Positions 5,119-64,000 of a stretch of 64,000 bases of DNA are shown here, piece by piece. Numbering within the stretch: the first letter of the stretch is position 1; the number at the start of each line of letters is the position of its first letter. A program made the position numbers and the translations under genes. Source of the stretch: Affinibrenneria salicis (GTDB lineage: Bacteria > Pseudomonadota > Gammaproteobacteria > Enterobacterales > Enterobacteriaceae); assembly GCF_008710095.1 (NCBI RefSeq), contig NZ_VYKJ01000015.1, forward strand, positions 1 through 64,000, read 5' to 3'. Under the pieces are notes generated by a model. It had not been told where the DNA came from and ran no database searches. It saw nothing but the letters and a program-made list of their open reading frames with translations.

Positions 5119-5178
5119 TCCGTCTCGATACTTTCACATTGTATTAATGCCGGTGGAAACCACCCTTTATGCATTAAT

Positions 5179-5255
<77 letters not shown>

Positions 5256-9997: not shown

Positions 9998-10146
9998 TCG
10001 CGGCGCGGGCGGCAGGAAACGATTGGCATCCCGCCCGCGGCGTTTTATGATCGCGCTGTCCGTACGAACAGTATGAACGTTATACAATATAGCGGCGCCG
10101 TGTTTATCGGTGCCGTTTTCTTTTTTCTGGTAGAGGTCGGGTAGTT

Positions 10147-10968
10147 ATGAGTACGCAACACTCCGCCGCGTATTTACAGCGTTTCGGCGGTACTGCGCGT
10201 TTATACGGCGTACAGGCTTTGACTTTGTTTTCGCAGGCGCATATTTGCGTTATCGGCATCGGCGGCGTGGGGTCCTGGGCGGCGGAAGCGCTGGCGCGCA
10301 CCGGTATTGGCGCGATCACGCTGATCGATATGGACGATGTGTGCGTCAGCAACACCAACCGGCAGATCCACAGCCTGCGTGAACACATTGGTCAGCCAAA
10401 GACCGCGATCATGGCCGAGCGTATTCTGGCGATCAATCCGGAATGCCGGGTAACCTGTATCGATGATTTTATCAGCGCGGACAACGTTGCTGAGTTGCTG
10501 GCCGGCCCGTTTGATTATGTTATTGATGCGATCGACAGCGTGCGTCCCAAGGCGGCGCTGATCGCCTGGTGTCGGCGCCATAAGATCCCGCTGGTGACTA
10601 CCGGCGGCGCGGGCGGGCAAATCGATCCAACCCGCATTAGCGTCGCCGATTTGGCGAAAACCATTCAGGATCCGCTGGCGGCTAAGCTACGCGAACGGTT
10701 GAAACATGATTTTGGCATCGTGAAAAGCAGTAAGGGCAAGTTGGGGATCGACTGCGTTTTTTCCAGTGAACCGCTGGTGTATCCGCAGCCCGACGGCTCG
10801 GTATGCGCATCGAAACATACGGCGGACGGCGTCAAGCGAATGGATTGCGCATCCGGTTTTGGCGCGGCGGCCATGGTGACCGCCACGTTTGGTTTCGTCG
10901 CCGTTTCTCACGCGCTGAAAAAAATGTTGGCGAAGGCGCAGCGCGCTGCATCCGGGACGGTCAGCTAA
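10147..10968 (+). CDS. tcdA: tRNA threonylcarbamoyladenosine dehydratase TcdA
   Basis: This E1-like ATPase dehydrates t6A37 of ANN-decoding tRNAs to the cyclic form ct6A. The 273 residues (268 in E. coli CsdL/TcdA) contain the ATP-binding loop [13 protein letters not shown] at about 37-50 and the adenylation motif [16 protein letters not shown]. There is also a conserved [15 protein letters not shown] helix and a C-terminal hydrophobic segment around [12 protein letters not shown]. It converges with csdE-csdA (8-bp overlap of the 3' ends), the known partnership: CsdA/CsdE supply sulfur or assist TcdA in E. coli. ATG 10147 follows AGAGGTCGG. Confidence 0.95.
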
Positions 10969-49837: not shown

Positions 49838-50293
49838 AATGTCTCCACAAATAATCAACTATAAAATCAATAACTTAATCATTATGCCATTATTCCCTGT
49901 TAAACTTTAGTATAGCCGATATCACTGTAACGCAAATAGATCGCTATTGTTAGCAGGATTATAAGAACAGCGATACTCAATGCCATACAGCGTGTTGCCG
50001 CGCGCCGGCGTAGCCTGGCGGGCGGGCGCGAATGTGCCCGATCGCGCTTTGCGTCGGTGCGAACATAGCGCGCGACCTGGCGCTGTCGCGCGTTGAACGC
50101 GCGGCGGGAAAATCGGGTGAAGACAGGGAATGGAAAGCTCCGCCTGAAAATAAGCGGCAGCAGGCGTGGTTTGTGACTAGAGTAAGCGCACGCTTCGTGG
50201 GCGGTCCGGTTTGAGTGCGAGCTGGCCCGGCGCTGCCGCCGTGCGGGGCGTTACGCCAGCCGGTTAGCGCACGGTTGCCATCTGGCGTTGGCG
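49838..50293. other. 456-bp gap between rof and yaeP
   Basis: No gene is supported. The left 100 bp is A/T-rich and should hold the rof promoter; the rest is G/C-rich with short repeats of GCGCG (AGCGCGCGACCTGGCGCTGTCGCGCG, 50068-50093 region). A 60-codon frame at 50032-50214 lacks a ribosome site and any recognisable content. Confidence 0.6.
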
Positions 50294-50497
50294 TTACTTA
50301 TCCGCACACAGATCGCTGACCAGCAAATTCGCGGCGGCATAAGCGCACTGTTCGCGAACGGCATAGGGCAGATCTTCATTGGCCGCCACCTCGTTCAGCG
50401 CTTTGAGCGCGCAACCCAGCGCATCGGAAATATAGCCGATATCGCCGCCGGCGATCTCCGCGCGTAAGCGGCGTATTAATTCGCAGTATTGCTGCAT
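50294..50497 (-). CDS. yaeP: YaeP family protein
   Basis: This 67-residue soluble helical protein of unknown function aligns end to end with E. coli YaeP (66 residues): [23 protein letters not shown] and [14 protein letters not shown] 50497 is preceded by AAGGAGAAC on its strand, an excellent ribosome site. In E. coli it also lies between rof and yaeQ. Confidence 0.93.
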
Positions 50498-50663
50498 AGT
50501 CAGTTCTCCTTAAGTGATTCGGCTGGCCGCGGCGCGGCCGCGTGACTATAACACAGCCCGCCGCTGTCCGCTTTTTGGGGCTTATCATGCCATATGCGGC
50601 AGCTTTGCTGTGAGCCGGGACGAATCTCAAGTACACTTTCTGCTACTATTAATGAGGTGAAGA

Positions 50664-51215
50664 ATGGCGTTAAAAGCAACCATTTATAAAGCAGCGGTCA
50701 ATATTGCCGATCTGGATCGGCATTTCTTTTATGACGCCAGCCTCACGCTGGCGCAGCATCCATCAGAAACCGATCAGCGCATGATGCTGCGTCTGCTGGC
50801 CTGGATTTGTCATGCGCATGAGCAACTGCGCTTTACCAAAGGGTTGTGCGCCGACGATGAGCCGGAGATTTGGCTGCATGACGACAGTCAGCAAATTCTG
50901 CTGTGGATTGAACTGGGGCTGCCCGATGAACGCCGGCTGAAAAAGGCCTGCAGCCTGGCGCGTGAGGTGGTGCTATACGCCTACGGCGAACGGGCCGCCA
51001 GCGTCTGGCGGCAAAACATCGCGCAGAAAACCGGCGGGCATAAAAATCTGACCATCCGCTTTCTGGATGACAATCAACTGGCGCAATTGGCTGCGCTGGC
51101 GCAACGCAATATGACACTGCAGGCGACGCTGCAGGAAGGCACTATCTGGTTATCTGACGCTGAGAATAATCTGGAAATCGCCTTCAGCGACTGGCAAAGT
51201 CCGCCTCAATCGTGA
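50664..51215 (+). CDS. yaeQ: YaeQ family protein
   Basis: The 183-residue protein has a PD-(D/E)XK-nuclease-like fold (known for the YaeQ family) but unproven activity; the E. coli protein was studied for its resemblance to RfaH suppressors. Family stretches are [55 protein letters not shown] and [12 protein letters not shown] 50664 follows GAGGTGAAGA. It is divergent from yaeP. Confidence 0.92.
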
Positions 51216-51400
51216 TGATGGTGGGGATTTTGCAGGAATAAAGACTATACCCAATAAATTTCAGGATGCGGGATGGCGGTAAATGCCGGCATCGACAGGC
51301 TCAGGGCGGACGGTTTGCCGTAGCCCGGAAACGGGCCGTATTTTGCGCCGCAAGCGCGCCCGCAGGCTGAAAAATGGAGGGGATACACTGGAGATAGGGT

Positions 51401-52084
51401 GTGAAAACATTAACCACAGGCATTCTGCTGGCGCTGGGACTATCCATTTTAATTGGTTGTCACAGCCGGGCTGTTGTACAGGAGGCCTCTCTGCGGCCAA
51501 TGCCCCAAAGTTATCGCGGCGTTTTGCCTTGCGCAGATTGCTCCGGCATCGAAACCACGCTGTTCCTCGATACTGATGGAACCTTTGTTCTAACCGAACA
51601 CTATCAAAGTTCACGTCCAGGAACGGATACCTTTTCGGAATACGGCCTGTGGGCGCGTACGGCAGATAAGCTAGTGCTTACTCGCAATGACGGCGATAAA
51701 CGCTATTTCCGCCCGCGCGACAACGGGCTGGAGGTGCTGAGCACCGATGGCGCGCCGATTAAGTCGTCACTGAATTATCGACTCGATGCGACGGAAACGC
51801 CGTTGCCGGTAACGCCGATGAGTATGCAGGGGCTTTATCGCTATATGGCGGAAGCGTCGCTGTTCACCGATTGTTTTACCGGCAAAACGCTGCCGGTAGT
51901 CAGCAACCTGACGCTGGAAAAACAGTACCTGAGCCTGGGAACGCGCGACGGCGCGCCAGCTCTGATGTCGCTTGAGGCGCATTTTGCGCTGGTGCCGTCG
52001 GTGAAAGAGGGGCAAACGGTGAAAAGCGTGGTGCCGGATAGTCAGAAGATTAAGCTCGACGCCAGCCAGCACTGCCCGCTGTAA
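51401..52084 (+). CDS. nlpE: Envelope stress lipoprotein NlpE (CutF)
   Basis: NlpE is an outer-membrane lipoprotein that signals surface contact and lipoprotein-sorting stress to the Cpx system. The start is GTG 51401. The signal ends SILIGCHSR, with lipid-modified Cys20. The N-terminal domain has the CxxC pair Cys44/Cys47 (LPCADCSGIET) and the TTLFLDTDGTFVLTEHY strand pair. The C-terminal OB-like domain ends at Cys225 and may disulfide-bond as in E. coli NlpE. At 227 residues it is slightly shorter than the 236-residue E. coli protein. arfB, its usual upstream neighbour, is absent. Confidence 0.92.
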   Translation: MKTLTTGILLALGLSILIGCHSRAVVQEASLRPMPQSYRGVLPCADCSGIETTLFLDTDGTFVLTEHYQSSRPGTDTFSEYGLWARTADKLVLTRNDGDKRYFRPRDNGLEVLSTDGAPIKSSLNYRLDATETPLPVTPMSMQGLYRYMAEASLFTDCFTGKTLPVVSNLTLEKQYLSLGTRDGAPALMSLEAHFALVPSVKEGQTVKSVVPDSQKIKLDASQHCPL

Positions 52085-52624
52085 CCGGCCGAACGTTAGG
52101 CGGCCGGCCGCGGTCCGTTAATTCGGCTTCAACCGTTATGATGCCGGCAACCAAACATACTTTGCCGCGATGCGGGCAAAGTGCGTTGGCGTTCAACGCC
52201 CGCACCGCCCCGCGTGAATCCGCCGATGTTAGTGAACGCTTCGTGTTTCTCCTGAAACGGAGCTTCTCTTCTGTGCAGTGCGGACGAGTAACGCCTTGCG
52301 CTTGCAGTAAGTCTTTACTTACCCAGTCGGAGCCGAATTCCGGCTCTCGGCCACGGCGTCAGGTTCTGTTTCTGCTGCATATCTAATATCGTCGACTGAC
52401 AGGCGGATTATGATGCCGGCATCGCGGGTGACGAACGATCAGACCTGTGATGCGAACATAAATAAAAAATCCCACCATCAGCCCGCGGGCGCTGACCCTT
52501 TTTTTTCAGCTATTTATAATTAATTGATTTTATGACTATTATCTTGTCTGGCAGACAAAAGGGTTTTTACGCCGTTAATCCTTTTTCTCTTTAACTATCA
52601 GGAATAAACCACTATTTTATAACG
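52085..52624 (+). promoter_or_regulatory. CRISPR leader and upstream hairpin-rich gap
   Basis: The right part (about 52445-52624) is A/T-rich, with TGACCC and an eight-T run at 52494-52508 and no frame, typical of an I-F leader directly before the first repeat. The left part holds several short hairpins: ACTTTGCC/GGCAAAGT (52159-52182), GGCG/CGCC (52188-52200), GTAAGT/ACTTAC (52307-52322) and GAGCCG/CGGCTC (52330-52346). No gene is supported here; one of the first hairpins may terminate nlpE. Confidence 0.65.
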
Positions 52625-54391
52625 GTGCACTGCCGTACAGGCAGCTTAGAAAGGATAGCGGACCGGCGGCAGGGTGTCCCACAGGTGCACTGCCGTACAG
52701 GCAGCTTAGAAAAGAGGGCTACGACTACCAGCGTGACGATGAAGGTGCACTGCCGTACAGGCAGCTTAGAAAAGCGCAAAACGTCATCAAGGGGAACTTC
52801 ACACAAGCACTGCCGTACAGGCAGCTTAGAAATTACCGCCAGTTACAATCAGCGGAGAAACCCTGTGCACTGCCGTACAGGCAGCTTAGAAAGGCCGGCA
52901 AGATACTGAACGATAAATTCCGGCGTGCACTGCCGTACAGGCAGCTTAGAAACGATTTCGATCGTACGCCAGCGTCATTTCCAGGTGCACTGCCGTACAG
53001 GCAGCTTAGAAAGCACGAGAACGTAACAAGTTACCCGGAGGATTGTGCACTGCCGTACAGGCAGCTTAGAAATTACCGCCAGTTACAATCAGCGGAGAAA
53101 CCCTGTGCACTGCCGTACAGGCAGCTTAGAAAGGCCGGCAAGATACTGAACGATAAATTCCGGCGTGCACTGCCGTACAGGCAGCTTAGAAACGATTTCG
53201 ATCGTACGCCAGCGTCATTTCCAGGTGCACTGCCGTACAGGCAGCTTAGAAAGCACGAGAACGTAACAAGTTACCCGGAGGATTGTGCACTGCCGTACAG
53301 GCAGCTTAGAAATATTCGGCATGGTGTATTTTGTGTATAGATGCGTGCACTGCCGTACAGGCAGCTTAGAAATTCCTCCATGGCGGTTTTCAATGCGGCC
53401 GCATGTGCACTGCCGTACAGGCAGCTTAGAAAGTGCTGGGGGTCGGTAGCCGAATCGAATGCATGTGCACTGCCGTACAGGCAGCTTAGAAAAGAGATCC
53501 GGATATCAGTTTTAAAAACGAAATGTGCACTGCCGTACAGGCAGCTTAGAAAAACTCATCACTGCTTGCCAGTTTTGCCGCAGAGTGCACTGCCGTACAG
53601 GCAGCTTAGAAATGACGGAACTAAAAACCAAAACACAGGACTGGGTGCACTGCCGTACAGGCAGCTTAGAAAGTCAAAACCATCAAGCCATGCAGACTCA
53701 ATGAGTGCACTGCCGTACAGGCAGCTTAGAAAAGCCACGTATCATCGCCGATCACAAACAGATCGTGCACTGCCGTACAGGCAGCTTAGAAACGAGTGGA
53801 TGGGCGGCACGCCGGGGCAGAACGGGTGCACTGCCGTACAGGCAGCTTAGAAAGCTCAGGTGTCGTTCAATGACATGCCGACGACGTGCACTGCCGTACA
53901 GGCAGCTTAGAAAGCTGGCAGCAGTCATCCGGCATCGCCGACCCGGTGCACTGCCGTACAGGCAGCTTAGAAATATCGAATTCTCCACCAGTCAGAATCT
54001 GACGGGTGCACTGCCGTACAGGCAGCTTAGAAATCAATGAAATCATTTGATAGCGATTCATAGTGCACTGCCGTACAGGCAGCTTAGAAATGCCGGAATG
54101 ATGCCGATTGCCGGACATGAACGTGCACTGCCGTACAGGCAGCTTAGAAAGGAAAAATTCCGCGTTGTGGGCGAAGACGGGAGTGCACTGCCGTACAGGC
54201 AGCTTAGAAAAGCGCCCAGAAACTGGCAATAAATAGCACTGTTTGCACTGCCGTACAGGCAGCTTAGAAACACAATCATATGGTCCAGCACATTGATATC
54301 AACGTGCACTGCCGTACAGGCAGCTTAGAAAAGTGATACCCCATGGCTTGTGTATCATCATCAGTGCACTGCCGTACAGGCAGCATGGAAA
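52625..54391 (+). CRISPR. CRISPR array, I-F repeat type, 30 repeats and 29 spacers
   Basis: The 28-nt repeat GTGCACTGCCGTACAGGCAG, continuing CTTAGAAA, is the I-F (Ypest) consensus, with G instead of T at position 3. Units are 60 bp (32-nt spacers). Exceptions are spacers of 33 nt at 53793-53825 and 54271-54303 and one of 29 nt at 54034-54062. The last repeat (54364) ends CAGCATGGAAA, marking the distal end, so the leader is on the left and transcription is plus. Repeat 4 (52805) starts AA instead of GT and repeat 28 (54243) starts TT. There are 25 distinct spacers because four are duplicated. No cas gene is present in the window. Confidence 0.98.
52833..53312 (+). repeat. Tandem duplication of a four-spacer block in the array
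   Basis: Spacers 4-7 (starting TTACCGCCAG, GGCCGGCAAG, CGATTTCGAT and GCACGAGAAC) recur unchanged and in the same order as spacers 8-11. The 240-bp block 52833-53072 is therefore repeated exactly at 53073-53312. This is best explained by unequal recombination between repeats and appears recent, since no difference is visible between the copies. Confidence 0.97.
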
Positions 54392-54459
54392 CATATGGAC
54401 AGCCAGGATAGCACGGCTCTGGCGAAAATATTCGGTTCGCGCCAGAGCCTGCGGAGCGC

Positions 54460-57027
54460 TTACACCATGTTTTTTAGCCGATAGAGCCAGTCCAGCGCCT
54501 GACGCGGCGTTAATGCGTCGGGATCGAGCGCTTCCAGCGCCTCTATGGCCGGAGAGGGTTCCTCGCTGGCGGGCAGCAGCGCGAGCTGCGAGCCGTCGAC
54601 ATGGCTGGCCGAGGTATTTGCGGACAGCGTTTCCAGCTCCCTCAGCTTTTGCCGGGCGCGCTTAATTACGTCGCGCGGTACGCCCGCCAGCGCGGCGACC
54701 GCCAACCCGTAGCTCTTGCTGGCCGCGCCGTCCTGCACGCTATGCATAAAGGCAATGGTATCGCCGTGCTCACGTGCGTCGAGATGGACGTTCACCACGC
54801 CTTCCATTTTTTCCGGCAGGTTGGTCAGTTCGAAATAGTGGGTGGCGAACAGCGTCATGGCTTTGATGCGGCTGGCCAGGTTTTCCGCGCAGGCCCAGGC
54901 CAGCGAGAGACCGTCGTAGGTGGAGGTGCCGCGGCCGATCTCATCCATCAGCACCAGGCTGTGTTCCGTGGCATTATGCAGAATATTGGCGGTTTCCGTC
55001 ATTTCAACCATAAAGGTCGAACGGCCGGACGCCAGATCGTCAGCCGCGCCAACGCGCGTGAAGATACGATCGACCGGACCAATCACCGCCTGGCTGGCCG
55101 GTACAAAGCTGCCGATATAGGCCATCAGCACAATCAGCGCCACCTGACGCATGTAGGTGCTTTTACCGCCCATGTTCGGACCGGTGATAATCAGCATCCT
55201 GCGCTGTGGCGACAGGGCCAGCGGATTGGAGATAAAAGGTTCGCTCAGTACCTGTTCAACCACCGGATGGCGCCCCTCGCTGATTTTGATGCCGGGTTTC
55301 TCCGTGATGGTCGGGCAAACATAGTTGAGCGTTTCGGCGCGTTCCGCCAGATTGGCCAGTACGTCCAGTTCGGCCAGCGCGCTGGCGCTTTGCTGCAGCT
55401 CCGCCAGATGCGGCAGCAGTAAATCGAACAGCTGGTCGTACAGCGCTCTTTCCAGCGACAGGGCTTTCCCTTTGGATGTCAGAACTTTATCTTCGTACTC
55501 TTTCAACTCGGGAATGATATAACGCTCGGCGTTTTTTAGCGTCTGACGGCGTACGTAGTGAATCGGCACCAAATGGCTCTGACCGCGGCTGACCTGAATG
55601 TAGTAGCCGTGCACGCCGTTAAAGCCGACTTTCAGCGTATCCAGTCCCAGTTTTTCCCGCTCGCGAACCTCCAGACGTTCCAGATAGTCGCTGGCGCCGT
55701 CCGCCAGCGCGCGCCACTCATCCAGTTCGTCGTTATATTCGCTGGCGATCACGCCGCCGTCGCGCACCAGTACCGGCGGCGTCTCCACGATGGCTTTTTC
55801 CAGCAGCTCGCGCAGTTCGTCAAACTGACCGATGCGGCAGGACAGCTGTTTCACGTGCTCGCCGGCTATGCCGGCCAGCAGCGCATGAATATCCGGTAAC
55901 TGCTGGAACGCATGACGCATTCGCGCCAGATCGCGCGGGCGAGCCGTGCGCAGGGCCAGACGCGCCAGAATACGTTCCAGATCGCCAACCTGGCGCAAAT
56001 AGGGCTGCAGCTCGGCGGCCAGATCCTGCAGAACGCTAATCGTCTGCTGGCGGTGGTTGAGCACGGCGATGTCGCGCCCCGGCATATGTATCCAGCGTTT
56101 CAGCATCCGGCTGCCCATGGGGGTGACGGTGCGATCGAGAATCGCCGCCAGCGTATTTTCGCTGCCGCCGGCCAGGTTCTGCGTCAGCTCCAGATTGCGC
56201 CGGGTCGCCGCATCCATGATGATGCCGTCTTCCTGACGCTCCATGGTGATGCCGCGGATATGCGGCAGCGCGGTGCGCTGGGTATCTTTGGCATACTGCA
56301 GCAGACAGCCGGCGGCGCGCAGCGCCAGATGCGCCTGCTCGACGCCAAAACCAATTAAATCGCGAGTGCCAAACTGCAGGTTCAACTGCTGCCGGGCGGT
56401 ATCCAGCTCAAATTCCCATAGCGGGCGACGGCGCAACCCGTGGCGCGATTCGATCAGATCCATCGCGGCAAAGTCTTCCGGATACAGCAACTCGGCCGGG
56501 TTGGTACGCTGCAGTTCGGCCGCCATCGTTTCCCGATCGGCGGGTTCGGTCACGCGAAAACGCCCGGAACTGATATCCAGCGTCGCGTAGCCAAAACCGC
56601 GTGAATCCAGCCAGATCGCCGCCAGCAGGCTATCTTGCTTCTCCTGCAGCAGCGCTTCATCGCTGATGGTGCCTGGCGTGACGATGCGCACGACCTTACG
56701 CTCCACTGGCCCCTTGCTGGCGGCCGGATCGCCTATCTGCTCGCAGATCGCAACGGATTCGCCTAGCTGCACCAGCTTCGCCAGATAATTCTCCACCGCA
56801 TGATAGGGAACGCCCGCCATCGGGATCGGTTCGCCCGCCGAAGCGCCGCGTTTGGTCAGGGAAATATCCAGCAGCTGTGAGGCGCGTTTCGCATCGTCGT
56901 AAAACAGCTCGTAGAAATCCCCCATGCGATAGAACAGCAAAATTTCCGGATGCTCAGCCTTTAGTTTGAGGTACTGCTGCATCATGGGCGTATGGGCGGT
57001 GAAGTCCTTGTCAGTAGACTCTTTCAT
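54460..57027 (-). CDS. mutS: DNA mismatch repair protein MutS
   Basis: MutS recognises mismatches and small loops and recruits MutL. It has 855 residues (853 in E. coli). The N-terminal mismatch-reading Phe38-x-Glu40 is in MGDFYELFY. Connector, lever and clamp domains follow. The ATPase has Walker [15 protein letters not shown], Walker [17 protein letters not shown] and a signature near [10 protein letters not shown], and the C-terminal region ends in the tetramerisation segment [18 protein letters not shown]. It starts 68 bp after the CRISPR array and faces it. In E. coli mutS lies elsewhere, so this is a lineage-specific neighbourhood. Confidence 0.97.
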
Positions 57028-57827
57028 ATTAATTTTACTCGATTTTTAGCCTTTCAGAGGGATCATGTGACCGCTTGTAAAATCGTCAAAAATCCACATT
57101 AACCTATAAATTTGTATCGCCGGAGTATACCAGATAAGAAGCGGTAAACGTTCCCTGACGCTGGCGTGCATGAAACAACAGCGTCGAAAATAACATTCAA
57201 TCTACCGACTATAATCAATAAGTTATCTTTCCTGTTCGCGTGTTTTTCTGTTCCCGGAGGGCGCATTCTCTACACCGGCTTTCCTGAGGAGGCCTCGCCT
57301 TGTCAGCAAAAAAACTGCGGGATTTTGCCTAAAATCAGCGTCAGGCAAAGATATACAATTATCCAATAACGGGTTGATTTTCGCAGACGGCGTGCCAACG
57401 CCGGCAAAGCACAACGGAAAGTTATCAGAGCAACGATGGGAAATGTATCTGATTTTGCAATCAGTGATCAGCTTCGCGAAGCATTTCGAAGTTTTGCCCA
57501 AATCAGGGCGTATGTCGGCGGTTTGCCCGTGTCGGGAATGTCATCCCGGATTTAATTCAGCGAATTTTATCTCCGGACACATGTGCTGCACGGGGGAAGG
57601 CGGTATTCGCTTTATTCTGATAGCGTGATGCTATTATGGAGTAATAATTTATAAATTAATGAGTTATGGTCTTTCGAGCTAACGTATAGGCTTTTCTGAA
57701 CGTTAAGTCACCGTTAGATATCAATATAAGCGCAGACCAGAGGGCGTCCGTGAAGCGGGCTGTCAACGAGGCCCGTCGACAGACTTTTATTCCGCTTAAC
57801 CGCCAGTGCGCAATCCGTGCCGGGGTT
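57028..57827. other. 800-bp gap between mutS and the hydrolase gene
   Basis: The right side of mutS (57028-57165) is A/T-rich and should contain the mutS promoter. Beyond it two plus-strand frames of 67 and 84 codons (57166-57369 and 57374-57628) have no ribosome site or recognisable motif. They follow codon statistics poorly, so I do not call them genes. The stretch looks like eroded accessory DNA. Confidence 0.55.
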
Positions 57828-59186
57828 TTACGATAAGGTCGGCTGTTTTTTCGGCACGGCACGGACCCATTCAATAATGTCCTTTATCACCACATCGCTG
57901 AACTGAGGGTGTTCTGCTCTTTGTTTTATATTCATAAAATTATGATCCAGCGCCGGGTAGAATTTAAAGCGAGCACGCTCGCCCAGCGGCGACAGTGCCT
58001 GCTGCCAGCGATGATAATCCTCTTCCAGTACCTTATAGTCCTGGCCGCCCTGCATAACCAGCGTAGGCAGGCCGAGGCGGCGCACTTCGTCGGTGGGATT
58101 GATTGTCTCCAGGCTGGCGAGATAGCTGGCGGGTAAGTGAAAGGGGTAAGGCGGGGTATCGATCCCCTGGGTTTTATGCGCCTGCCAGTTGTTAATCTGG
58201 CCATTGAGCGCCTCGATCTGCGCTTCATATTTAGCGTGGTTGGCTGGAAATGCGCGCTGCAGGGTGTGCAGCTGTCGAACGGCGCGCAATGCAATGTCTG
58301 CGTCGGCAGGCGTGGCCAGCAGGATAAGGCCCGAGACGTCGTTTTTTAACCGGCTGGCGATTCGCGCGATAAATACTCCGCCCTGGCTATGGCCGATTAG
58401 CAATAGCGGCGCGCCGTCGACCCCTTGTTCCGATGCGATATACCGGGCGGCGGTGACGGCATCGTCAATGACTTCATCTTCAGGGGCGTATGCTTTGCCG
58501 ATAAAACTGCCCGGGGAACTGAGGGTTCTTTTGTCGAAGCGAACAGAAGCGATGCCTGCAGACGCCAGACCGTTGGCGAGGTCTAAAAAGGGTGCAACCT
58601 CACCTTGCGTTTCGTTGCGATCTGTCGCCCCGCTGCCGGGAATCAACACGCTGACCGCGCGGATTTTTTGACTGGGTAATAGCACGGTTGCATTTAACGG
58701 CGGGGCGCCTTTCTCTCCCGGAATAATAACGTCTTTAATCCTGAAGTCAGGAGACATTGTCTTTTTATCTGACTCTTGCGCCGGGATGATTCTGAATCCT
58801 GACAGATCACCGCGGCTATCGCAAAGCGAGAATAACAATACATCGCTTTTTTGGTAATGAATCCGGGTAGAGAAACGATGAGCGCCGCCCATTGATTGTA
58901 TTTTATCGCTGCGGGTTAATTTCCCATAATTCGACAGCATTGCTTTTACGCTATCCAGTTTTTCATTGCTAAGCGCCTGATTCAGACTGGCGGACCAACC
59001 GCTTCTGTCAATACTCCCCGAGTCTGATTTTAACCAGCTGATTATATTGCCGGTTTCAGTTAAACATTGTTGTTCTTCATGCTGTTTTTCACTCAATGAT
59101 AAAGGTGTTTCTGCCGCGGAGATGCTGTGAGCCGATAAAAAAATCAATAGCGACAGGATACCTGCGATATTACGTTTGCCAAACAT
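57828..59186 (-). CDS. Exported alpha/beta hydrolase
   Basis: The 452-residue protein begins with a Sec signal peptide (GILSLLIFLSAHSISAAE, cleavage after about 25). It has an N-terminal domain of about 130 residues resembling the helical/cystatin-like region before secreted serine hydrolases, then an alpha/beta hydrolase domain (about 150-450). The nucleophile elbow is IGHSQGG with Ser267, the oxyanion region is LIPGSGATDRN, and the acid and base are probably the Asp of MQGGQDYK and the His of ALDHNF. The substrate is not predictable; esterase or peptidase activity is inferred. It stands alone between two gene-poor stretches, consistent with acquired DNA. Confidence 0.85.
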   Translation of the reverse strand: MFGKRNIAGILSLLIFLSAHSISAAETPLSLSEKQHEEQQCLTETGNIISWLKSDSGSIDRSGWSASLNQALSNEKLDSVKAMLSNYGKLTRSDKIQSMGGAHRFSTRIHYQKSDVLLFSLCDSRGDLSGFRIIPAQESDKKTMSPDFRIKDVIIPGEKGAPPLNATVLLPSQKIRAVSVLIPGSGATDRNETQGEVAPFLDLANGLASAGIASVRFDKRTLSSPGSFIGKAYAPEDEVIDDAVTAARYIASEQGVDGAPLLLIGHSQGGVFIARIASRLKNDVSGLILLATPADADIALRAVRQLHTLQRAFPANHAKYEAQIEALNGQINNWQAHKTQGIDTPPYPFHLPASYLASLETINPTDEVRRLGLPTLVMQGGQDYKVLEEDYHRWQQALSPLGERARFKFYPALDHNFMNIKQRAEHPQFSDVVIKDIIEWVRAVPKKQPTLS

Positions 59187-59492
59187 GTTATCAATCCCCG
59201 ATCCGTAAAATAAATATGTTCTCGCCTGCAGTATTTAATTATTGTGACTATAACTACGTATAGTAACTGATACAGTAATCATGGCCTTGCCTGGCTACTT
59301 TATCGTTGCCTGATGCCGTTGCTGTATACTTATGAAAGCATACTGTTGTTTCATTTTTGAGTCATAAATCAAAGTATTGTAGTGGATATTCCCTGTGCTT
59401 AAACGCCGTGCCGGCCAAAACGCTATCGGAATGAACAGGCCAGCGGACAACGATAAGGCTGCTGTTGGCGAGCCGGTTTGCGCCAGCCTGGG

Positions 59493-59660
59493 GTGTGTCC
59501 CGTAACTGTTTTTTGTACAGAACAGCATTGTTATAACTGTGCAAAAACGCCTTTAAGCGATAAAAACAGCCCTAAAAATGCTCAATATTCAACCCACAAA
59601 CACATTCCGGAAATGATTACTGCATCACTTTTTGGTATGCAGGGAGGTTAAGGGACACAC
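59493..59660. repeat. Segment bounded by 14-bp inverted repeats
   Basis: GTGTGTCCCGTAAC (59493-59506) and GTTAAGGGACACAC (59647-59660) are inverted copies with one mismatch, enclosing about 140 bp without a gene. The size suggests a miniature inverted-repeat element or the fused ends of a deleted insertion sequence. No flanking target duplication was recognised, so the assignment as mobile is tentative. Confidence 0.4.
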
Positions 59661-60051
59661 ACTAAAACCAGTCTGTCCTGTGAACGTGGAACGCTATGTT
59701 CAGCCCCCTTCTCAGGTCGTCACGTTTCTCAAAATGCTGTGTCTAACCCCGGATAAGCGTCTGCTTCCCGCATGGATTACCCGTTTGTCTGTTCCGCAAA
59801 AATACCTTACCGGATAAACATGGCATTATGCAGCAGACCGGCAAATGCCGGATATCCCCCGCCGTACGCCTGATGATCTGCGTCGTACCGCTCTTCGGGG
59901 CTATTACGTGAGGCTATTTCGGGCCATACGCGCGGTGGAATGGGGCGTTTATAATCTGTATCAATATGATGTTGGGTGCGGCAGAGTGGTTACAGATTTG
60001 GGCGGGTTACCTTGATAGTCTGGTTAGATAAAATGCACTGGTTTATCAGGT

Positions 60052-60180
60052 ATGCGTTCATTGGATTATCGTTGGGTTTTTTCTGTTAGCGCCGCTGTTG
60101 TCGTTATCATTGGCATTACCATACTGACCCTGATCGCCATTGAGAAAAATATCGGCTTAACGGACCTAATCGAAAATTAG
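60052..60180 (+). CDS. Possible 42-residue single-span membrane peptide
   Basis: The frame MRSLDYRWVFSVSAAVVVII continues to EKNIGLTDLIEN and a TAG. It has a basic N-terminus, one hydrophobic segment of about 22 residues and an acidic tail, the usual layout of a small inner-membrane protein. CAGG lies one base before the ATG, too close for a good ribosome site. It may instead be the surviving signal-anchor of a larger decayed gene, since the surrounding 1.8 kb is degraded. Confidence 0.3.
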   Translation: MRSLDYRWVFSVSAAVVVIIGITILTLIAIEKNIGLTDLIEN

Positions 60181-61000
60181 AGCGTTTCCCCCCGCCCGCT
60201 AACTAAGTATATTTCCCCACTAAATTTCTGCGCCGAATAAATAGCTTCGCATAATAGCGCTACACGTGCCCTACAGGTTGCAGTGACAATGCTATTATAA
60301 TTAAATCATAATTATCTGTTTTTAATGATTACTTTAATGCTCTTATCATCAGTTACGCGCTGTGGCATGGTCAAAAGTGAAGCAGCAATGCGCGAAGCTA
60401 TTTATCTGCTGCGCCTGTTATTTATTGGCACGTTAGCGCATCACACTACAAGCCCTATGTGGCGCCGTTTAGCGGCGAAAATGCCTGGCTAATCCTTTGT
60501 GTTACAAGGGCCGGCTAAAAGTAGGGGCACTATTCGATGCCGTTATTTGCCACCGACGACGTATTCGCCGCAGGCGGGGATTTCTATACCGCCCTGTGGC
60601 GTGTCAGCGTTACCTCGCTCCTTAACTGCCGGCAAAGCATTATCTCCGCTGGCGGTCGCCATCAGATAACCCATGGTTAAACAATCGGATAGGTAATAAT
60701 GGGGGCGTTCTTACCCACGAGTTTCAGCAATGCTTTATATAAAAAACGCAAATGCTTAACCATTTATTTTATTGGTATATACCAGATGCCCGGTGATAGC
60801 GTATTTATCAGAACCGAATAATTTCTCACCCGTTTTATACCTAATGGATTGAGAGACGCAGGAAGTCGACAAGCGCGTTCAAATTCGTCTGGAATGGATT
60901 TGAACGCCGCTTGCGGCGGCCCAGTCGGTCGGGTAATACAGCCAAAGGCTCTGTCACCTGGCAGATGACGGATATATGAAAATTATTTATGCGAGTCACC

Positions 61001-61927
61001 ATGATAAAAATTAAATTGATGCTGGAGTATTTTCATCCCTGGCCTAATTCGGCCGGTTATTACGTTGCCAGGGAAAACCATTTTTATTCCGAACAGAATT
61101 TGGATGTTGAAATCGTCGTCGGCGATCCGCATTTTGGCGACGCGTTAAGTTATTTACAGCGTAAAGAGGTCACTTTCGGCGTATTCCCGTCAAACCGATT
61201 ACTGGTCCGCCGCGCGGAGGGACAACCCCTGAAAGGCGTGGCCGCCATCAATCATACCGGTCTGGAATCGATTCAAACGCTCGCGGGGCGCGGAATATCC
61301 CGTCCGCGGGACCTGGAGGGCAAACGTCTGGCATTGAATCCCACTCCGCGCGGCGTGGCGATGGTTCGCCATTTGGTGCGGCAGGACGGCGGCGATCCGG
61401 ATAAGTTGATCTTTATTGATAGCGGCGTACGCGAACTCACGCCCGAAGAGCTGAAGGCCGGTATAGCGGATGCCAGTTTTGGCGGCTACTGGGCATGGGA
61501 AGCGCTCATGAGCAGTTCAGTGCCGGATGAGGAACGTGTGGTTATGCCGGTAAGCGACCACGGTGCTCCGCCTTATCACAGTTATCTGTTGGGCGCCCAT
61601 GAAGATACCCTCGCCAATAGCCCGGATGTGGTGCGCCGTTTTATCGCCGCCACTTCCAGAGGGTATTACCATACGGCCGCGCACCCGGAAGAGGCGTTGC
61701 GCATTTTCGAAAAAACCACTCCGTATTTCCCGTCAGATTTGTTGTCCGCATCATTAAACGCGATTACGCCTACCTGGTTCCATCAACGCCAATGGGGCAT
61801 ACAGCGGGAGTCATTACTGCAACCCTATGCACAGTGGCTGCATCAAAACGGCATTATCAATCATGCCGGGATCTGGCGTGACGCGACCACCAATCGCTTT
61901 CTGCCGGAGGTGACGCATGTCGGATAA
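61001..61927 (+). CDS. NMT1/ThiY-type substrate-binding-like protein without signal peptide
   Basis: The 308-residue protein (312 from the alternative ATG 60989) resembles NMT1/ThiY/SsuA-type periplasmic binding proteins: LEYFHPWPNSAGYYVARENHF matches their N-terminal ligand loop. GDALSYLQRKEVTFGVFPSN, ISRPRDLEGKRLALN and the later FGGYWAWEALM continue the type II binding fold. It has no signal peptide or lipobox from either start, and no in-frame upstream extension exists. That is unusual for an ABC transporter component and closer to cytoplasmic Thi5-like or sensor proteins. Its stop overlaps the kinase start by 11 bp. The ligand is unknown; a pyrimidine, sulfonate or related small molecule is inferred from the family. 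Confidence 0.8.
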   Translation: MIKIKLMLEYFHPWPNSAGYYVARENHFYSEQNLDVEIVVGDPHFGDALSYLQRKEVTFGVFPSNRLLVRRAEGQPLKGVAAINHTGLESIQTLAGRGISRPRDLEGKRLALNPTPRGVAMVRHLVRQDGGDPDKLIFIDSGVRELTPEELKAGIADASFGGYWAWEALMSSSVPDEERVVMPVSDHGAPPYHSYLLGAHEDTLANSPDVVRRFIAATSRGYYHTAAHPEEALRIFEKTTPYFPSDLLSASLNAITPTWFHQRQWGIQRESLLQPYAQWLHQNGIINHAGIWRDATTNRFLPEVTHVG

Positions 61928-63098
61928 TATGGGCGCTGATGCTCACGGCATGGGGACCGATGCGGTGGCTGCGGATTGGCCCGCCATGACTCAAGACGAT
62001 CTGACCCGGTTACTGGCGCATTACCCGGCGCTGGGAAAACTGCAGGCCAGGCACTGGCGCAGCCCGCGGCCGTTCTCCTGCGCGGAAATTATTGCCACCG
62101 AGCACGGATCGCTATTCGTCAAACGCTATCATCATCGGGTTCGCCAACCGGAGGGGTTGATCGAAGAGCACCGTTTCATGACGCACCTGGCCGAACAGGG
62201 CATCCCGGTGCCCCATATTTACCGCAGCCTGACGGGGGACAGCGCGCTGCGACTCGGTGACTGGACTTATGAAATACACGGTCTTTCGTCTGGCGAGGAC
62301 TGGTATCGGGATACCCGCTCCTGGGAACCCTTTCATTCCGCCGATGACGCCCGGGCGGCTGGGGCTATGCTCGCCAGATGCCATATCGCCGCCGCGGACT
62401 ATCAGGCGCCTTGCCGTCGGCAACAGCCGTTGATCGCCAATCTACGTCTCTTCAGCCAGAAAAATCCTCTTGAGGCGCTGCAGCGCCATATCGCCGGCCG
62501 GCCGGCGCTAATGGCCTACTTCGCCGATAAACCCTGGCGACAGACCATCGACCAACACATACTGCCCTGGCATCGGAAAGTGTTTCCTTATCTGGCGCAA
62601 CAAAAACCACTCTGGACGCACAACGATTGGCACGCGTCGAACCTCTTATGGCGGCGCACCCCGACGCGCCCGGAAGTCGCCTGCGTCATTGATTTTGGCT
62701 TAAGCGATCGGACATTTGCTCTTTTCGATCTGGCTACGGCAATAGAGCGCAACGCCATTGCCTGGTTATCGCTGACGCCGGCGCACAGCCCCGAGGCGGA
62801 TTTGTCGGCGGTGACGGCGCTGCTGGCAGGCTACCGCGAGCATCTGGCGTTGACCGATACCGATCTGCTGGTCCTTTCCCTGTTACTGCCGATTGTTCAC
62901 GCCGACTTCGCGCTTTCCGAGCTCGATTATTTTGCGGATATCCTCAAAAACAGAACCTATGCGGATCTGGCCTGGTTCGACTATTTATTCGGCCACGCGG
63001 CCTGGTTCAGCCAGCCGGCCGGCCAGCGCCTGCTGCGGCATATCCGCACGCCATCACGGCGCCGGCGACAGACAGAAGGAACTCCACATCATGCATAA
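61917..63098 (+). CDS. APH/choline-kinase-fold phosphotransferase
   Basis: The 393-residue cytoplasmic kinase belongs to the aminoglycoside phosphotransferase superfamily, which also includes thiamine, choline, homoserine and methylthioribose kinases. The ATP-site Lys is probably Lys69 in SLFVKRYHH, with an acidic partner in EEHRF. The catalytic loop is THNDWHASN with Asp237 and Asn242, and the metal-binding DFG is VIDFGLSD with Asp259. ATG 61917 lies inside the end of the preceding gene, and its stop overlaps the rhodanese start (ATGCATAA). Resistance is not implied; the coupled neighbours suggest phosphorylation of an imported or salvaged metabolite. Confidence 0.85.
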   Translation: MSDNMGADAHGMGTDAVAADWPAMTQDDLTRLLAHYPALGKLQARHWRSPRPFSCAEIIATEHGSLFVKRYHHRVRQPEGLIEEHRFMTHLAEQGIPVPHIYRSLTGDSALRLGDWTYEIHGLSSGEDWYRDTRSWEPFHSADDARAAGAMLARCHIAAADYQAPCRRQQPLIANLRLFSQKNPLEALQRHIAGRPALMAYFADKPWRQTIDQHILPWHRKVFPYLAQQKPLWTHNDWHASNLLWRRTPTRPEVACVIDFGLSDRTFALFDLATAIERNAIAWLSLTPAHSPEADLSAVTALLAGYREHLALTDTDLLVLSLLLPIVHADFALSELDYFADILKNRTYADLAWFDYLFGHAAWFSQPAGQRLLRHIRTPSRRRRQTEGTPHHA

Positions 63099-63981
63099 TC
63101 AACGCCGGCATATCCTCATTGAATGCCAGGACTTAAACACGCGCCTACAGACTCCCGGCCTCGTCGTGCTGGATGCCACCGTCGGCTTGCCCGCGCCCCG
63201 TTTTGACGGCGACTATCGGACAACGCATGGCGCTGATGGCTGGCGACAGGAGCATATTCCGGGTTCCCGCCATGCGGACCTGCTGCATGACTTATCGGAT
63301 CTAAACGCCAGCTACAGTTTTGCCAATCCGCCATTGCCGCAATTCCGGCAGGGGCTGCGCGCGCTGGGGGTGACGGACCACAGCGAGATTGTGATTTACG
63401 ATCGGGCCGATGGTTTTTGGGCCGCGCGTTTATGGTGGATGTTGCGCAGTACAGGCATCGCAGCACGGGTGCTCAACGGCGGCTGGCAAGCCTGGCGACA
63501 GGCAGGCTACGCGACGGAGCAGGGCGAGCCCGCTTTTGCGCCGCCACGACCGGGGAACTTGACGCTGCGTCAACAGCCCGGGTTTTGGTGCGATCGGCAG
63601 GACGTGGCCGCGGTTCTGACGGGCGAAAAAACCGGCGCCGTCATCTGCGCGCTCTCTGAAGCGGTGTATCGCGGGAAAACGCCCACCCGTTACGCGCGGC
63701 GCGGTCATATTCCGGACAGCGGCAATATACCGGCCAGGCGCTTTCTCGATGAGACGGGGCGTTATCTCGACTCATCCGATCTGACAATACGTGCCGCCTC
63801 GTACGGTTACTCCCAACATACTCCGCTGCTCCTGTACTGCGGCGGCGGTATTTCCGCCGCATCGCTGGCGCTTAGCCTGACGCTGGCCGGTTATCGGCAA
63901 CTGACAATTTACGATGGCTCGTTGCAAGAGTGGGCTGCGGATCCTTCACTGACGCTAATCGCTGATACTCACCATGACTAA
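63091..63981 (+). CDS. Two-domain rhodanese-like sulfurtransferase
   Basis: The 296-residue protein has the tandem rhodanese layout of SseA/TST enzymes. The inactive N-terminal domain has VVLDATVGLPAP, HIPGSRHADLLHDLSD and YDRADGFWAARLWWML in place of a Cys loop. The C-terminal domain has the catalytic Cys250 in LLYCGGGISAASLAL. Its loop CGGGISA differs from the CGSGVTA type of mercaptopyruvate enzymes. There is no signal peptide, so it is cytoplasmic. It overlaps the kinase by 8 bp and the next gene by 8 bp, so it should deliver or remove sulfur in the same pathway; donor and acceptor are unknown. Confidence 0.87.
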   Translation: MHNQRRHILIECQDLNTRLQTPGLVVLDATVGLPAPRFDGDYRTTHGADGWRQEHIPGSRHADLLHDLSDLNASYSFANPPLPQFRQGLRALGVTDHSEIVIYDRADGFWAARLWWMLRSTGIAARVLNGGWQAWRQAGYATEQGEPAFAPPRPGNLTLRQQPGFWCDRQDVAAVLTGEKTGAVICALSEAVYRGKTPTRYARRGHIPDSGNIPARRFLDETGRYLDSSDLTIRAASYGYSQHTPLLLYCGGGISAASLALSLTLAGYRQLTIYDGSLQEWAADPSLTLIADTHHD

Positions 63982-64000
63982 TACCGCAATGGTCTCCGTG
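63974..64000 (+). CDS. Start of a further coupled gene, cut by the window end
   Basis: ATG 63974 (ATGACTAATACC) overlaps the rhodanese stop by 8 bp in the same ATG-TAA style as the preceding junctions. Nine codons are visible (MTNTAMVSV). Nothing can be said about the product; an ABC permease or another enzyme of the cluster is a guess from context only. Confidence 0.45.

Follow-up and report, generated by a model that had tools for sequence, protein, structure and literature searches.

At the end of the window, that is, the whole stretch of 64,000 nucleotides from Affinibrenneria salicis (contig NZ_VYKJ01000015.1) analyzed here, three overlapping genes code for a cytosolic NMT1/ThiY/Thi5-fold protein, an APH-fold kinase and a two-domain rhodanese (Table 1). 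We hypothesize that these genes belong to a locus for the inducible uptake and breakdown, or the sulfur recovery, of thiamine or of one of its vitamers, a reading to which we give a probability of roughly one half. Thiamine supply and loss shape microbial communities, and the genes by which bacteria use thiamine as a nutrient are little known.

Gene anatomy and conservation of the trio

The preliminary description of this DNA had reported overlaps of 11, 8 and 8 bp across three genes and the start of a fourth, and direct reading of the sequence agrees: 11 bp between the NMT1 and APH genes, 8 bp between the APH and rhodanese genes, and 8 bp between the rhodanese gene and the fourth ATG. The protein identities proposed there are likewise borne out by Pfam matches. 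The NMT1-type gene has an alternative in-frame ATG at 60989. Neither the DNA of the trio nor the protein gave a match in plasmid or E. coli collections, and a PADLOC search for defence systems gave no match.

Table 1. Genes of the cluster in the window.
Feature	Position	Strand	Basis
NMT1/ThiY/Thi5-fold protein, 308 amino acids, cytosolic	61001..61927	+	Pfam NMT1, E 8e-55
APH-fold kinase, 393 amino acids, motifs HNDWHASN and IDFGL intact	61917..63098	+	Pfam APH, E 2e-22
Two-domain rhodanese, 296 amino acids, catalytic loop YCGGGISA in the C-terminal domain	63091..63981	+	Pfam Rhodanese, E 2e-23, two stretches
Start of fourth gene, MTNTAMVSV..., cut by the window end	63974..64000	+	ATG in another frame, 27 bases inside the window

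A collection of species genomes was scanned with the NMT1 protein, which gave 78 loci; among the best 80 of 82 matches the closest relative, 68% identical, lies in Pseudomonas. Pseudomonas helleri DSM 29165 (L004) is among the carriers of the trio. Four loci (L075-L078) hold transporter-type proteins and were excluded, and counts therefore refer to 74 loci plus the window, 75 altogether. Profiles built from the loci were searched in all frames, the kinase and the rhodanese being counted when present downstream, on the same strand and within 6 kb. The kinase was identified in 55 of the 75 loci and the rhodanese, together with the NMT1 protein, in 69. The refuting condition set beforehand, a lack of conservation of the three genes as neighbours in other genomes, did not hold: they are neighbours in 54 loci (window included), across phyla. 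The remaining 21 comprise 16 actinobacterial loci without APH, three of Ralstonia type, L046, where the contig ends, and L042, which has no rhodanese match. Relative to the NMT1 stop, an APH start codon is positioned at -1 or -4 bp in 47 of 55 loci; relative to the APH stop, a rhodanese start codon falls between -8 and +12 bp in 51 of the 54 trio loci, spacing being taken from the in-frame start codon nearest the stop, which favors small values (the first pair of the window scored +1, its true ATG being at -11). This close spacing is not due to chance and is operon-like. Class-wide genome sampling, seed genomes included, found the system in 1/369 Gammaproteobacteria, 2/299 Bacilli and 1/289 Alphaproteobacteria, low counts that make it rare and patchy; within the genus of L001, 8 of 119 genomes have it (seed included). 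The grouping is thus real and conserved, in scattered and distantly related bacteria.

The Ralstonia-type loci (L067, L068 and L074, positions 10001-10912 of each) represent a branch of the cytosolic NMT1 family, approximately 49% identical, without kinase and rhodanese, and their next gene, as read from the sequence, resembles a relative of 4-hydroxyphenylpyruvate dioxygenase.

The NMT1-fold protein

The AlphaFold2 model of the NMT1-fold protein has a predicted local distance difference test score (pLDDT) of 95.3, and its nearest folds, among the 50 fold entries listed, are ThiY (3ix1), the thiamin-bound binding protein 4nmy and Thi5, a result that points to thiamine. The protein shares fold and sequence family with ThiY and the thiamin-type binding proteins of ATP-binding cassette (ABC) transporters, but it has neither their secretion signal nor their lipid anchor: counted from the ATG at 61001, a conserved motif already begins at residue 8, leaving no signal peptide, and a lipobox is present in 0 of the 74 scored members of the cytosolic family (window included; L066 could not be scored), versus 18 of the 22 NMT1 proteins of transporter type from the loci fetched. 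It further differs from the formylaminopyrimidine-binding ThiY of ThiXYZ and from the thiamin ABC binding proteins (3ix1, 4nmy) in its own conserved motifs, LEYFHPWPNSAG and GAPxYHSY, and in its place beside a kinase and a rhodanese; in Gram-positive loci a separate ThiY-type protein does the transport.

The earlier suggestion that the NMT1 protein captures the ligand for an uptake system was consequently not confirmed, as the protein is cytosolic and the ABC-containing loci carry another NMT1 protein. Among the 120 matches listed, most of the relatives that bear a name are annotated as the substrate-binding protein of an ABC transporter or of a transport system, a naming that would suit a transporter binding protein that has lost its signal peptide within a remnant of an ABC importer. 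We consider this hardly credible and reject it on the lipobox counts, in a family that is highly conserved and in which the loci with an ABC permease, 18 of 75, also have a separate transporter-type NMT1 protein. The gene set also offers a candidate function for proteins that databases currently list as substrate-binding proteins of ABC transporters.

Known enzymes of this fold do not account for its chemistry. In Thi5, the fungal hydroxymethylpyrimidine phosphate synthase, we take K62, H66 (named in the title of 4esw) and the CCCFC iron site to be catalytic; the letters of the family profile aligned with them are F, R and APxYH, and cysteine is absent from the window protein, which rules out Thi5/NMT1 chemistry. 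Cysteine is also absent from 27 of the 48 aligned members and from all invariant columns, so the mechanism of the desulfinase DszB, whose catalytic residue is presumably Cys27 (C27S appears in the title of 2de3), is ruled out as well. The Dsz desulfurization system is comparable in that a cytosolic enzyme with the fold of a substrate-binding protein (SBP) stands, in part of the loci, near an NtaA/DmoA-type monooxygenase; here, however, the monooxygenase is optional and a kinase and a rhodanese are present. Scavenging of sulfur from some thioether or sulfonate that has nothing to do with thiamine, by a DszA/DszB-like pair (flavin monooxygenase and SBP-fold enzyme) with a sulfurtransferase, is in our view quite improbable, since 49 of the 75 loci lack a monooxygenase match within 7 kb, the cysteine that DszB presumably needs is missing as described, and ThiY, 4nmy and Thi5 score far higher in the fold comparison. 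Thiaminase I, which splits thiamine and has an SBP-like fold, acts through an active-site cysteine, whereas the window protein has none; it is not among the 50 fold entries listed, an absence that proves nothing. The excerpt of PMC4475313 describes thiaminase I as the enzyme with which Burkholderia and some Gram-positive bacteria degrade thiamine.

The kinase and the rhodanese

The window kinase carries the HxDxxxxN and DFG motifs on an APH fold, as a ThiK-type thiamine kinase would. Eight NCBIfam models match it at E up to 1, none of them a thiamine kinase model (whether the library holds one for ThiK was not checked), and the best, homoserine kinase and serine/threonine kinase models, are both far below their cut-offs. 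It is 44-49% identical to 12 kinases located beside TonB-PnuC loci with a thiamine pyrophosphate (TPP) riboswitch, and 41-53% identical to the other kinases of the cluster. In 14 of the 16 actinobacterial loci without APH a P-loop kinase motif was identified instead (the exceptions, L056 and L065, sit on contigs that break off shortly afterwards), and a PPOX-type oxidoreductase motif is present in 13 of the 16. The P-loop kinase of L054 scores 167 bits with PRK06547 (cut-off 173), and its PPOX protein is above the cut-off of an F420-dependent family. The presence of an unrelated kinase in the same position suggests that phosphorylation is a needed step in the function of the cluster. In the Actinoplanes locus L069 (7506-13201) we observed an SBP, ABC genes, a cytosolic NMT1 protein, PPOX, a P-loop kinase and a monooxygenase, and no rhodanese match.

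The rhodanese fits the layout of 3-mercaptopyruvate sulfurtransferase, with tandem domains and a C-terminal catalytic cysteine in a neutral CGxG loop, which is identical (YCGGGISA) in 61 of the 66 scored loci. Its closest solved relative is SseA (1urh) and its closest curated model is the 3-mercaptopyruvate sulfurtransferase NF008557, with which it scores 116.7 bits, well below the cut-off of 250. The excerpt of PMC10135228 gives CGSGVT as the loop of mercaptopyruvate sulfurtransferase and CRKGVT as that of thiosulfate sulfurtransferase; the CGGGIS of the cluster is comparable to the former, though not the same, and unlike the latter.

Neighboring genes and uptake

Neighbors were counted when their profile exceeded 150 bits within 7 kb, in the 75 loci, the window ending before a TonB receptor, a PnuC or a downstream ABC permease could appear. 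PnuC was found in 50 loci and a TonB receptor in 47. GntR regulators were matched in 35 loci (with further ones just past 7 kb), flavin monooxygenases of NtaA/DmoA type in 26 and ABC permeases in 18. The monooxygenase count is loose, because its profile came from a merged cluster of at least two subfamilies; the one member tested resembles dimethylsulfide monooxygenase. Riboflavin catabolic clusters with the riboflavin lyase RcaE also include a flavin monooxygenase that is associated with a vitamin and belongs to this superfamily (5w48), but their other genes differ, as far as the beginning of the abstract of PMC12746152 goes. A profile of an e(P4)-like phosphatase exceeds 300 bits in 15 of the 78 loci, one member scoring 164 bits against the e(P4) cut-off of 216. 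Other regulators are LysR, matched by profiles in some loci, and a MerR-like protein in Metabacillus, read from the sequence.

All 18 loci with an ABC permease have a separate NMT1 protein in the cluster, with a lipobox (14 of 18) or a hydrophobic start. Two of these 18 partners were compared with 4nmy, titled as a thiamin-bound form, and are 63% (Metabacillus, L048) and 49% (the actinobacterium L053) identical to it. In proteobacteria, uptake would be better assigned to the TonB receptor and the PnuC-type permease, a pair that constitutes a genetically tested thiamine uptake route in Bacteroides, as TonB receptor and PnuT (excerpt of PMC5613172).

The same pair points to thiamine within the Gammaproteobacteria. 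A survey of PnuC in 229 gammaproteobacterial genomes, with 20 regions fetched, showed a TPP riboswitch in nine of them, and in one such region (L127, genome G185) the TonB receptor reaches 919 bits with the TonB profile of the cluster, five other TonB stretches reaching 32-82. When 151 Xanthomonadales genomes were searched with the TonB receptor, 26 loci were obtained (G185 included), all with homologues of the PnuC and of the kinase of the cluster, and 23 with a TPP riboswitch directly ahead of the TonB receptor; the loci without riboswitch (L133-L135) have a GntR match instead. The TonB receptor and PnuC of the related clusters are thus homologous to the riboswitch-linked Xanthomonadales pair, the pairing being the same as in the OMthi-PnuT uptake of Bacteroides (excerpt of PMC5613172), from which the cluster differs in having no TPP riboswitch, a regulator of its own, an NMT1-fold protein and a rhodanese. 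On these grounds thiamine or a closely related compound is the probable substrate, a substrate class that we regard as fairly supported.

Two individual loci are worth describing. L171 (3498-9003), of the Xanthomonadales, has kinase, TonB, PnuC and GntR, and no match to NMT1, rhodanese or TPP riboswitch; it is a transitional form, standing between the module with the riboswitch and the complete cluster. In L169, a fluoride riboswitch match (5169-5234) lies near the thiamine-linked uptake locus.

Regulation

At the Rfam gathering score, no TPP riboswitch was found in positions 50000-64000 of the window, and nothing was found in seven cluster loci. The riboswitch is near the NMT1 gene in 0 of 20 genomes, though all 20 have a match elsewhere (17 above the family cut-off), with the proviso that two of them (G012 and G019) carry the gene of Ralstonia type, which has neither the kinase nor the rhodanese beside it, and that some contigs end near the cluster (in L036, approximately 150 bases upstream of the gene). 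Where both are on the same contig, they are separated by 187 kb (G011) and 1.7 Mb (G018). That TPP control has been lost and a regulator of the GntR, LysR or MerR type acquired suggests a substrate-driven use; control would be exerted by a regulator of this type, not by TPP, which suggests a role in breakdown for nutrients or sulfur rather than in cofactor salvage.

The system could alternatively serve the salvage of modified or damaged thiamine (disulfide, S-alkylated or oxidized), with the NMT1 protein binding or repairing the compound, the rhodanese removing or returning sulfur, and the kinase making the monophosphate for TPP synthesis. This shares the substrate evidence given above, and a need for salvage could be argued from the three of the 20 genomes that have no ThiC match, one of which (G004) has, as read from the sequence, ThiM and ThiE behind a TPP riboswitch. 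A ThiC match is, however, present in the other 17 genomes carrying the NMT1 gene, and the absence of the riboswitch near this gene contrasts with its presence at 23 of the 26 homologous Xanthomonadales uptake loci, so we regard such salvage as unlikely. The preliminary description had suggested thiamine or thiazole salvage: the tie to thiamine is supported by the ABC partners, the TonB and PnuC homologues and the nearest folds, while thiazole salvage was not supported, the regulation fitting catabolism or sulfur recovery better.

Proposed mechanism and its weighing

The reactions that we propose for inducible thiamine breakdown are speculative. In related proteobacteria the TonB receptor would carry the compound across the outer membrane, the e(P4)-like phosphatase, where a locus encodes one, may remove phosphates in the periplasm, and the PnuC/PnuT-type permease would then import the compound; in Gram-positive relatives, import would be performed by the ABC importer with its thiamin-type binding protein. 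In the cytosol, the kinase would phosphorylate the compound or its product, trapping it, at the hydroxyethyl group of thiamine or of a fragment. The NMT1-fold protein would be an enzyme acting on the compound, not a transport receptor, and might hydrolyze ring-opened (thiol-form) thiamine next to the formyl-amide nitrogen, yielding 5-hydroxy-3-mercapto-2-pentanone (free or phosphorylated) along with a formylaminopyrimidine, the compound that ThiY binds. The mercaptopentanone is described as an intermediate of thiamine breakdown on heating (excerpt of PMC6270652); it is an alpha-mercaptoketone, chemically like 3-mercaptopyruvate, and could be desulfurated by the rhodanese. In loci that have it, the flavin monooxygenase might use a sulfur or carbonyl intermediate as its substrate.

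This would amount to a route of bacterial thiamine breakdown not described genetically before, with cleavage by a cysteine-free ThiY/Thi5-fold protein, trapping by a kinase (APH or P-loop) and collection of sulfur by a rhodanese, a proposal that is tentative and against which we would place the odds. If true, one operon would have drawn both a transport receptor and an enzyme from a single fold family, and the cytosolic protein beside a related transport protein would be a good case of a transport fold turning into an enzyme. The preliminary description had called the set a candidate undescribed system, and searches of the open-access literature (most subscription journals being outside its scope) agree: among the papers listed for thiamine catabolism, this gene set is seen in no title or beginning of an abstract, and no paper combining NMT1, rhodanese and thiamine was found; the word rhodanese is absent from the Burkholderia thiaminase I paper (PMC4475313).

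Several observations weigh against inducible thiamine uptake and breakdown as the function of the locus. The window holds only the first three genes, and the transporters and regulators are known from relatives. In the three Ralstonia-type loci, neither kinase nor rhodanese accompanies the NMT1 protein. The lysine/histidine pair or cysteines through which Thi5, DszB and thiaminase I act are absent from the NMT1-fold protein, so these enzymes leave its chemistry unexplained. Genes labelled NMT1/THI5-like behind a xanthine riboswitch serve purines (excerpt of PMC7373994), so this label by itself is no evidence for thiamine. In the Xanthomonadales, NMT1 and rhodanese are absent from all 13 widened loci with kinase, TonB and PnuC, which indicates that these three genes form a thiamine-linked module that can stand apart, the NMT1-rhodanese pair being an addition to it in the cluster; furthermore, the kinase is located upstream of the TPP riboswitch, and no second riboswitch precedes it in the eight TPP-type regions scanned. 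The TonB receptor of the cluster falls under a siderophore receptor model.

The PnuC of the cluster adds to these points, since it passes the NCBIfam nicotinamide riboside transporter model and groups in the tree with two PnuC copies located beside NadR-like (nicotinamide riboside kinase-like) genes. Both observations would agree with a nucleoside-like substrate other than thiamine, such as nicotinamide riboside, for which PnuC would be the transporter. The TPP-riboswitch-linked PnuC of L127 is nevertheless in the same clade, on a long branch, the TonB and ABC evidence points to thiamine, and the rhodanese would have no obvious role, reasons for which we judge a substrate of this kind very improbable. 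The tree itself gives no clean split between thiamine and nicotinamide riboside transporters, as it has long branches and NadR-linked and TPP-riboswitch-linked copies are mixed. The two NadR-linked copies, beside genes that read as NadR-kinase-domain-like, are in L113 (2894-4089), from the host of L001, and in L116 (3422-4560), from another gammaproteobacterium; each is likely part of a nicotinamide riboside pair apart from the cluster.

Other features of the window

The approximately 1.8 kb ahead of the operon (59190-60988) contain no open reading frame of at least 80 amino acids, only short ones of up to 77, and perhaps represent decayed genes or the remnant of a mobile element. Further upstream, mutS (54460-57027) is 78% identical to E. 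coli mutS along its entire length, which would fit a host from the Enterobacterales. Just beside it ends a CRISPR array (52625-54391) of 30 matches to Rfam CRISPR-DR4, with 28-bp repeats approximately 60 bp apart.

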